Shown: in pieces, positions 38,443 through 44,206 of the stretch
Layout of the letters: each line of letters opens with the position of its first letter
How positions within the stretch are numbered: position 1 is the first letter of the stretch
Origin: Candidatus Nitrosocaldus sp.
Lineage (GTDB): Archaea; Thermoproteota; Nitrososphaeria; Nitrososphaerales; Nitrosocaldaceae
NCBI GenBank assembly: GCA_025054855.1
Contig: JANWZS010000010.1
Location: 1-64,000 of the forward strand
Length of the DNA: 64,000 nucleotides
Direction: 5' to 3'
Made by a program: the position numbers and the translations under genes
Notes under the pieces: generated by a model
Databases searched by the model: none
What the model was told of the DNA's origin: nothing
Seen by the model: only the letters and a program-made list of their open reading frames with translations

Positions 38443-39107
38443 ATACTTACTGCTCAGGAGATGCTATTAACCATTGCTGTTATTGCCATCACCATCCCTC
38501 ACATGGTACCCATCACGATAGGCATCACAACACCTACAACGATAGGGATGCTCATGTTATCGTCTATGGCTATTGCAGGTGATCTACAGCAACATCAACC
38601 GCACTAGCCATGAGTGCTAGCATGTGTTGAACAAGTAGCATCTAACCAAGCAAGCATTGTAGATGCAAGTAATGCGAGCTAACCCATGCTCTTGCATGCG
38701 TAAGGGTCCTATGCATCCCATACGCCCTACCAGCCATGGATGCAAGGCCATCGAAGGGTTACAACTGCGACACTACTTGGCCTGCTGGTTGTGGCAGTGC
38801 AATGAGCGCTATAGGTACTCCAGGTGCAAGGTATACGTGGCCATCACATCACTGGTCTGCAGATATCCTACTCGTCACGCCTGGCAAGGAGTGCTATGGA
38901 TGATACTACAGACGTTGATATGCAACCTTGATCGCATGTACTAGGATATGCTGTAGATTGCAAGCAGGGAGGTGAGTAGGAGCAGTGCCGTGTATGGCGA
39001 GTGCATGTGAAGGGGTACCATGGAAGTCGAGTATGTGCATGGACTTTCTGAATACCTCCCTACTCAGCACAGTGCCCTTGATATGAACCCAAGTTGCTCC
39101 TGATCTA
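38443..39107. other. Gene-poor interval before tRNA-Arg
   Basis: About 660 bases. No family is recognised in the short open frames (for example 38663-38944), which are Cys/Trp/Arg-rich and look random. Several imperfect ATGCAAG and GCATG repeats occur near 38650-38730. No clear RNA gene is seen. Confidence 0.4.
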
Positions 39108-39198
39108 CGGGCCCGGTGGGCTTCGATCCCACGACCTAGGGCTGTCTGCTGGATGACAACCGCAAGCCCTCGCCATATCCTGACTAGGCCACGGGCCC
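39108..39198 (-). tRNA. tRNA-Arg(GCG) with 16-nt intron
   Basis: On the minus strand the acceptor strands GGGCCCG and CGGGCCC pair fully; the D-arm, anticodon stem AGGGC/GCCCT and T-arm GTGGG-ATCGAAG-CCCAC follow. The anticodon loop reads TTGCGG plus A after removing 16 bases (39144-39159), giving anticodon GCG. A bulge-helix-bulge is seen with TTGC/GCAG as the four-pair helix and 3-base bulges GGT and ACA, so the intron is at the canonical 37/38 site. The discriminator is G. A TATA box (about 39222-39233) precedes it. Confidence 0.92.
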
Positions 39199-39307
39199 AC
39201 CCATGCATAACCAGCATAACTTTCAATTTATAGTTTAGCGTAGTGCTCCTGTTGGTGCTGGTTGGTGTACAGAAGGTTTTAATCTCCATGCAAGCAAGTA
39301 TGCCCTG

Positions 39308-43016: not shown

Positions 43017-44033
43017 GTGAGCAGATGGATGTGTAATGTAGCGGTCATGTATGGTATGGAACTTGCAAGGTATGGGTTTGCTGATGCACACCCATTCGGG
43101 AGTGATAGGCTCGATGCATTCTGGTCTAGGTTCACTGCAACCCTGTTGAATCACAGCATAGATGGCAGTAACGATGGTAACCATGAGCGTAGAGGTGAGG
43201 GTAGCAACTCATCCACCATTACTATAGAGAGGCCTGTGATGGTAGATGAGAATCTACTCCTCGAGTTCCATACTAGAGAGTACGTTGAGTTCGTGAAGAG
43301 GGCCTCGCAGTTTGGCATGGGCTACCTGGACTACGGGGATACCCCCGCATACAAGGGTGTATTCGAGGCAGCGTGCTACGTTGTCGGCACTACGGTAAGG
43401 GCGCTCGATATGGTACTCAGCGGGAGGGTTGACCATGCATTCAACCCAATAGGAGGGTTGCACCATGCCAGGAGGGGCTCTGCTGGGGGGTTCTGCGTAT
43501 TCAATGACATAGGGGTAGCGATCATGCTGGCAAGGAAGGTCTATGGGCTCAGGAGGATAGCGTACGTCGATATAGATGCGCACCATGGTGATGGTGTGTA
43601 CTATGAGTTCGAGGACGATCCCTTGCTCTTCATAGCGGATATACATGAGGATGGCAGGTACCTCTACCCTGGTACAGGGTTCGAGTATGAGGATGGTAGG
43701 GGTACTGCGAAGGGTACGAAGATGAACATACCGCTCAAGCCGTACTCTACCAGCAAGGAGTTCATAGATGCCTTCAGTAGGGTCGAGAGGTTCGTGGAAG
43801 AGGCGAGGCCAGAGCTCATAATAATGCAGTGTGGTGCAGATGGTATAGCAGGAGATCCATTGACACACCTACGCTATGGTAGGGAGGTGCACTACCATGC
43901 CACTAGGGCACTGCATAGGATAGCACATGAGCACTGCCATGGGAGGATAATAGCACTTGGAGGAGGAGGCTACAACAGGAGCAACCTTGCCCATGCCTGG
44001 GTAGAGGTAGTCAGGGCGCTACTTGCTGGGTGA
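43017..44033 (+). CDS. Histone-deacetylase-family deacetylase (AcuC-like)
   Basis: 338 residues from GTG 43017; ATG 43029 is an alternative. Active-site blocks are HHARRGSAGGFCVFNDI, DIDAHHGDGV with the metal-binding Asp and His, DIHEDGRYLYPGTG, CGADGIAGDPL and LGGGGYN. Such enzymes remove acetyl groups from proteins or small amines. A Ser/Asn/Gly insertion (about residues 48-65) is low complexity. The gene is followed by tRNA-Ser. Confidence 0.88.
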   Translation: MSRWMCNVAVMYGMELARYGFADAHPFGSDRLDAFWSRFTATLLNHSIDGSNDGNHERRGEGSNSSTITIERPVMVDENLLLEFHTREYVEFVKRASQFGMGYLDYGDTPAYKGVFEAACYVVGTTVRALDMVLSGRVDHAFNPIGGLHHARRGSAGGFCVFNDIGVAIMLARKVYGLRRIAYVDIDAHHGDGVYYEFEDDPLLFIADIHEDGRYLYPGTGFEYEDGRGTAKGTKMNIPLKPYSTSKEFIDAFSRVERFVEEARPELIIMQCGADGIAGDPLTHLRYGREVHYHATRALHRIAHEHCHGRIIALGGGGYNRSNLAHAWVEVVRALLAG

Positions 44034-44050: not shown

Positions 44051-44064
44051 ATAATATATATACC
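44051..44064 (+). promoter_or_regulatory. TATA box of tRNA-Ser
   Basis: ATAATATATATACC lies about 20 bases before 44085. Transcription would then start near 44085 and make an 11-base leader before the tRNA. Confidence 0.55.
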
Positions 44065-44095
44065 ATCTGCATAACAATCCTATAGGCGCCGGTCT

Positions 44096-44206
44096 GCCGG
44101 GATTCGTTAATTCACGATGCCTGAGGGCAGAGTGGACTAATGCGCCGGCCTTGAGAGCCGGTGAGCCGCAAGGCTCGCAGGGGTTCGAATCCCCTTCCCG
44201 GCGCCA
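44096..44206 (+). tRNA. tRNA-Ser(TGA) with a 22-nt non-canonical intron at position 8/9; CCA encoded
   Basis: The acceptor strands GCCGGGA and TCCCGGC pair fully. The D-arm GCA/TGC, anticodon arm CCGGC-CTTGAGA-GCCGG (anticodon TGA), long variable arm GAGCC/GGCTC and T-arm AGGGG-TTCGAAT-CCCCT are typical of tRNA-Ser. Between acceptor and D-arm, 24 bases stand where 2 are normal. A bulge-helix-bulge explains it: TCTGC/GCAGA, then CGGG/CCTG, bulges ATT and AGG, then CGTT/GATG. Cutting removes 44104-44125 and leaves T8-G9. The discriminator is G203 and CCA is 44204-44206. Confidence 0.9.

Follow-up and report, generated by a model that had tools for sequence, protein, structure and literature searches.

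A leader copy of the 5' acceptor strand linked to a non-canonical tRNA-Ser intron in Nitrosocaldus, and its proposed origin in a nuclease-gene insertion

The tRNA-Ser(UGA) gene of Candidatus Nitrosocaldus sp. is interrupted by a short intron just beyond its 5' acceptor strand, and is preceded by a leader that includes a spare copy of that strand. We propose, with a probability of about 0.6, that this leader acts as a placeholder during processing of the precursor, that placeholder and intron constitute a single inherited unit, and that the locus is what remains of an inserted nuclease gene. The locus lies in the window, by which is meant the whole 64,000-nucleotide stretch of DNA that was analysed, from a genome of 1.56 Mb in 42 contigs.

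The tRNA-Ser(UGA) locus

Judged from the sequence, positions 44096-44206 are a genuine tRNA-Ser(UGA) gene in which a non-canonical intron of 22 nt separates T8 from G9. The joined exons provide a 7-bp acceptor stem, U8, G9, the D, anticodon, variable and T arms, and CCA. ARAGORN and Rfam both detect a tRNA-Ser here, with its start placed inside the intron (at 44120 and 44119, respectively). An earlier sequence-only reading of this DNA had put the intron between positions 8 and 9, restoring T8-G9, and its coordinates and pairings prove to be right. The features of the locus are as follows.

44055..44062, + strand: TATA-like promoter element (TATATATA), from the sequence; TATATA is kept in 6/6 Nitrosocaldus genomes
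44085-44095, + strand: whole leader, 11 nt, GGCGCCGGTCT, from the sequence
44085..44092, + strand: putative leader placeholder GGCGCCGG, a copy of the 5' acceptor strand (GGC-GCCGG), from sequence and fold; invariant in six species
44093..44095, + strand: TCT, the end of the leader, predicted from the fold to lengthen the outer helix of the splice motif via 44129-44131; invariant in the genus
44096..44103, + strand: exon 1, GCCGGGAT, tRNA nt 1-8, from the sequence
44104..44125, + strand: 22-nt intron between nt 8 and 9, with a central helix of 44098-44101 with 44120-44123, from sequence and fold
44126..44203, + strand: exon 2, tRNA nt 9-73, beginning with G9 at 44126, anticodon TGA at 44152-44154, from sequence, ARAGORN and Rfam
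44198..44205, + strand: CCGGCGCC, comprising the 3' acceptor strand, N73 and the CC of the encoded CCA; pairs with the leader placeholder, from sequence and fold
44204..44206, + strand: encoded CCA, from the sequence

The promoter element is centred about 26 nt 5' of position 44085, so transcription would be expected to start near 44084-44085, that is, at the leader copy itself. The sequence-only reading had also held that 44085-44092 is exactly complementary to the far end of the gene; this too is borne out, since GGCGCCGG and 44198-44205 (the 3' acceptor strand plus CC) are reverse complements at every position. The 3' strand also has a partner in exon 1, via 44196-44202.

The intron resembles the non-canonical tRNA introns with relaxed bulge-helix-bulge (BHB) motifs of Crenarchaeota and Thaumarchaeota, which are likewise short, lie away from the anticodon position, have a BHB-like motif and are served by a two-subunit endonuclease. 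Its removal leaves a normal tRNA, its borders form a relaxed BHB, and the genome contains two tRNA_int_endo genes for splicing-endonuclease subunits, as expected where relaxed motifs are cleaved; the enzyme may therefore be a heterotetramer. RNase P RNA is also found in the genome. As far as the open-licence literature shows, the locus differs from those introns in that a leader copy of the acceptor strand is tied to one intron position. The exons are contiguous and in the normal order, so this is not a split or permuted tRNA gene.

In the window the splice motif consists of a central helix (CGGG/CCTG), a 3' bulge and an outer helix. It had been described from the letters as a full bulge-helix-bulge. 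The two helices and the 3' bulge stand, but the 5' side does not, because the 5' cut sits in a 2x2 or 3x3 internal loop with no clean 3-nt bulge, which makes the motif a relaxed one. The central helix is mismatched in three Nitrosocaldus species.

Upstream of tRNA-Ser lies a 338-aa open reading frame (43017-44033) which is not a nuclease and is kept beside tRNA-Ser in the genus; the locus is syntenic within the Nitrosocaldaceae, with the same upstream gene adjoining. Elsewhere in the window, 39107-39199 on the minus strand is returned by ARAGORN as tRNA-Ala(TGC) in a scan of the window and as an intron-bearing tRNA-Arg(GCG) in a shorter scan; by sequence it is tRNA-Arg(GCG) with a 37/38-type intron.

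Conservation and joint occurrence of the intron and the leader copy

Across six Nitrosocaldus genomes the leader is identical at 11/11 positions, while the intron varies between 20 and 28 nt with 65% mean aligned identity. Mean pairwise identity is 77% over the 23 bases 5' of the leader and 36% in the 3' flank, and the spliced tRNA-Ser sequence has one variable nucleotide among the six species. Slow evolution of tRNA leaders in general can be ruled out as the cause, since the leaders of other tRNA genes average 40% identity over the same 11 positions (54 pairs, three Nitrosocaldus genomes). None of 77 control tRNA genes from three Nitrosocaldus genomes has a leader run of at least 8 bp against its own 3' strand. 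Chance complementarity is ruled out by the invariant leader, by these 77 controls, and by the intron-linked distribution described below. The sequence-only reading had counted a lack of the leader complement in relatives among the findings that would refute it; the complement is conserved there.

To define that distribution, 400 genomes of the class and 398 of the phylum were surveyed for the 8/9 intron alone, with the leader left unconstrained. In 33 of the 36 genes with an intron at 8/9 the leader can pair with the 3' strand over a run of 7-11 bp, and a run of at least 7 bp is found in 5 of 24 intronless genes; for runs of at least 8 bp the figures are 27/36 and 1/24 (Fisher p 3e-8). Collapsed by genus, the copy is present in 18/19 intron-bearing and 2/11 intronless genera (Fisher p 4e-5), and all three intron-bearing genes that lack it belong to a single genus, g207 (three genomes). 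The leader element, as its sequence indicates, is a copy of the tRNA's own 5' acceptor strand, and it recurs in other families with different sequences: the arrangement is GCGCUGGGA-UA-GCCGGGAU in Nitrosothermus, GGUGCCGGGA-AUAAUCUU-GCCGGGAU in genome G018 and GGUGCCGGGG-AGA-GCCGGGGU in G141. The pair opposite position 66 covaries, being A-U in 11 genes and G-C in 12.

On an EF-2 tree of 26 genomes the intron and the copy change eight times each, always jointly. Eight independent pairs are found on the best tree and five on supported branches; all five agree, giving a sign-test p of 0.06, the minimum reachable with five. As far as these distributions allow one to judge, intron and leader copy are gained and lost as one inherited unit, even between sister species.

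Two other accounts of the leader fail in the wider sample. The sequence-only reading had assigned the TCT of the leader to the outer helix of the splice motif, and in the window this pairing is predicted, with the TCT invariant within the genus; but it is not general, since many other lineages are mismatched there, and outer-helix pairing is thereby ruled out as the general reason for the leader. Nor can the upstream copy be the true exon 1, because U8 always adjoins the downstream copy and never the upstream one. One match to the survey pattern, in G253 (L275), is a coding region and not a tRNA.

Several variants were noted in the course of the survey. Two intronless tRNA-Ser genes of genus g4 (L019 and L021, in G008 and G034) nevertheless have a leader copy, ACCGGG in G008 and GCCGGG in G034; these are probably decaying remnants after intron loss, and g4 is the single partial exception among the intronless genera. 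In G053 (L233) a shorter GCCGGG immediately precedes exon 1. The g207 genes (L308-L310), which have the 8/9 intron and no acceptor copy, share a conserved leader, GCGGGTT, for which the D-loop region (AACCTGC or AACCCG) is a possible pairing partner. Some tRNA-Ser genes (L029, L030, L218, L221, L253-L256) contain further introns, in the anticodon loop or the D arm region.

Predicted folding and processing of the precursor

The mechanism that we propose is as follows. The transcript would start with the spare copy of the 5' acceptor strand, which in the precursor would pair with the 3' acceptor strand, leaving the genuine 5' strand to build the splice motif together with the intron; were the copy absent, the true 7-bp acceptor stem would outcompete that motif, which would then fail to form. 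The two-subunit splicing endonuclease and a ligase would excise the intron, after which the genuine strand would displace the copy, aided by tertiary folding of the tRNA or by RNase P, and RNase P would lastly remove the leader copy.

Predicted structures agree with the first part of this scheme. The minimum free energy (MFE) fold of 44085-44206 (-65.7 kcal/mol, z -4.3) contains an 8-bp helix between the leader and the 3' acceptor strand and lacks the true acceptor stem; the 5' acceptor strand pairs with the intron and the D arm, and there is a hairpin, TCTGCC/GGCAGA, with the intron. In ensemble calculations the true acceptor pairs have a probability of 0.00-0.01 with the native leader in 33/33 copy-bearing genes, and of at least 0.95 in most of them, lower in a few, once the leader is removed; in g207, which has no copy, the probability remains about 0.9. 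MFE folds concur in all 17 precursors looked at. The conservation within Nitrosocaldus, the recurrence in 18 of 19 genera and this loss and return of the acceptor stem in silico together support the earlier suggestion that the leader may occupy the 3' strand as the 5' strand takes part in the splice motif. The probability of the central splice helix is uneven (0.57 in the window, 0.99 in some genes and about 0 in many others), so that the calculation backs the sequestering of the 3' strand more firmly than the formation of the splice motif.

The median energy cost of imposing the true acceptor stem is 8.6 kcal/mol before splicing and 6.8 kcal/mol after it; for the window the corresponding costs are 5.4 and 8.4 kcal/mol. 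Nearest-neighbour energies thus prefer the leader helix even in the spliced molecule, and release of the leader would have to come from outside secondary structure, through tertiary folding, high temperature or RNase P.

Because the 5' strand would be unavailable for a normal acceptor stem before splicing, the placeholder mechanism predicts splicing before trimming. The order "splice first, trim later" fits the predicted folds. It is opposite to that in Methanopyrus kandleri, where 3' and 5' trimming are reported to come before intron removal (PMC3695527).

The same splice-first order would follow if the copy served mainly as a block, keeping RNase P, 3' processing or charging from acting on the unspliced precursor through its hold on the 3' strand and CC. 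It is perhaps relevant that the copy runs past nucleotide 1 to pair with N73, and often with the next C or CC, and that the precursor folds put no stem end at G1, where RNase P would cut. Not every copy pairs past N73, however, and removal of the leader in silico restores the true acceptor stem and abolishes the splice motif, so we regard blocking as an unlikely main function. Since leader removal affects stem and motif alike, the blocking and placeholder roles are inseparable with these data.

Nuclease insertions in tRNA-Ser of relatives and the origin of the locus

An origin for the unit is suggested by G018 and G040, sister species whose flanking sequences are 95% identical. The tRNA-Ser gene of G040 is intronless. 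In G018 the same promoter and GCCGGGATGGCAGAG are followed by about 750 bp containing a 198-aa gene, and then by a second GCCGGGAU, the intron and exon 2; the leader copy is made up of the final codons of the 198-aa gene (V E W C R E stop). Full-length genes occupy the same tRNA position in G018, G032, G108 and G141, the homologues being about 46% identical, and uninterrupted sites are present in relatives of the G032, G108 and G141 insertions (G019, G080/G156 and G114). In all four the nuclease gene thus sits at one fixed site that is empty in close relatives, a trait shared with homing endonuclease elements. In 160 genome look-ups a full-length gene turned up at no locus besides these four, and a C-terminal tail was confined to G132 and G144, in both cases abutting tRNA-Ser; the gene occurs at no other place in these six genomes.

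The inserted gene is predicted to encode a PD-(D/E)XK nuclease, presumably an active one. Its protein has PDB matches to Bax1 and T7 endonuclease I, PHROG endonucleases match all four proteins, and the Pfam phage endonuclease I family matches one of the four at 1e-6, slightly below the curated cut-off. Weak nuclease matches in G022, G004, G003 and G711, with no tRNA detected nearby, were set aside. That in G711 (L373, 1136-2049) is a frameshifted relative with an SKGGSISLKKW motif and a PD-(D/E)XK core; the tRNA-Ser of this genus has an intron and no leader copy. No relatives of the nuclease were found in viral contigs.

The arrangement in the four genomes indicates that the insertion disrupts the tRNA gene, supplies it with a new promoter, leader and exon 1, and brings in the intron, so that intron and copy would together represent the right end of the inserted nuclease gene. 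In G108 and G032 (L219 and L278) the nuclease frame continues through the leader, exon 1 and intron into the tRNA body, and the genes overlap.

In G018, G032 and G141 the upstream promoter and exon-1 copy are intact, and could in principle still be used; the whole 750-bp insert would then be a single BHB intron containing a homing endonuclease gene, as archaeal BHB introns are known to do (PMC6125680), and the near copy would be intronic. G108, however, has an intact nuclease gene and no upstream exon-1 copy, so that there only the rebuilt 5' end can be in use; a promoter-like motif precedes the near copy; and the window, G066 and all other loci have the near copy only. We therefore consider a large intron very improbable for the nuclease-bearing genomes, and it cannot apply to the window.

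Joint movement of intron and copy in these insertions might also mean that the copy has no function in RNA and simply travels with the intron as the end of the same mobile element, the more so as in intact elements it doubles as protein code (WCRG/WCRE). Yet in G066, G132 and G144, where the nuclease gene is gone or truncated, the promoter-like motif, leader copy and intron have been kept. In Nitrosocaldus, where the nuclease gene is absent, intron and flanks have diverged and the leader has not, and conservation without an open reading frame already disfavours a passive copy, as does the covarying pair at position 66. It is quite improbable, in our estimate, that the copy is a passenger.

Returning to the placeholder and its proposed insertion origin, no nuclease or remnant was found in Nitrosocaldus, including the window genome (G000), and the window locus therefore lacks the nuclease gene expected of a homing element; its proposed mobile origin rests on the shared architecture. 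The most economical reading is that the window locus would be an old, fixed remnant of a nuclease insertion, kept for its function in RNA. The intron would split the presumed target of the nuclease, as homing insertions do. More tentatively, and with somewhat less than even odds, a general rule may be proposed for these archaea: tRNAs with an intron just past the 5' acceptor strand would carry a temporary leader substitute, such introns would be left behind by a nuclease element that invades the tRNA gene and restores its 5' end, and the intron would then shield the gene from recutting.

Homing genes in archaeal BHB introns and group I introns likewise occupy one site in a conserved RNA gene, patchily and with empty sister sites; here the nuclease is not a LAGLIDADG enzyme but one of the PD-(D/E)XK type, with T7 endonuclease I and Bax1 as relatives, and it is absent from the window. 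Integrative elements also insert into tRNA genes and restore them from an element-borne part. They usually restore the 3' part, through an integrase, whereas the insertions described here replace the 5' part (promoter, leader and exon 1) and add an intron, and the 750-bp insert showed no integrase. In the split and permuted tRNA genes of Nanoarchaeum, Caldivirga and Thermofilum, leader base-pairing similarly lets the splicing endonuclease act (PMC4090602, PMC3218864); the present gene is unbroken, and its leader binds the 3' acceptor strand of the mature tRNA instead of another fragment's trailer.

Published work covers non-canonical introns, split and permuted tRNAs, and homing genes in BHB introns. 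Nothing relevant to alternative leader-acceptor pairing was found in the open-licence literature, and neither a leader copy of the acceptor strand nor a nuclease element that rebuilds a tRNA 5' end was found described there, an absence which is no proof. The likely origin of intron and copy from a nuclease insertion is new.

The gain and movement of archaeal tRNA introns have yet to be explained, and one review describes the mechanism of their transposition as still unknown (PMC4090602). Sister sites with and without the insertion, intact genes, tails and nuclease-free remnants together trace a route, open to testing, by which a selfish nuclease gene could become a small fixed intron. As a further point of interest, the leader copy would exemplify a precursor RNA lending itself a strand during processing, and would impose a processing order opposite to that reported for M. 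kandleri (PMC3695527).
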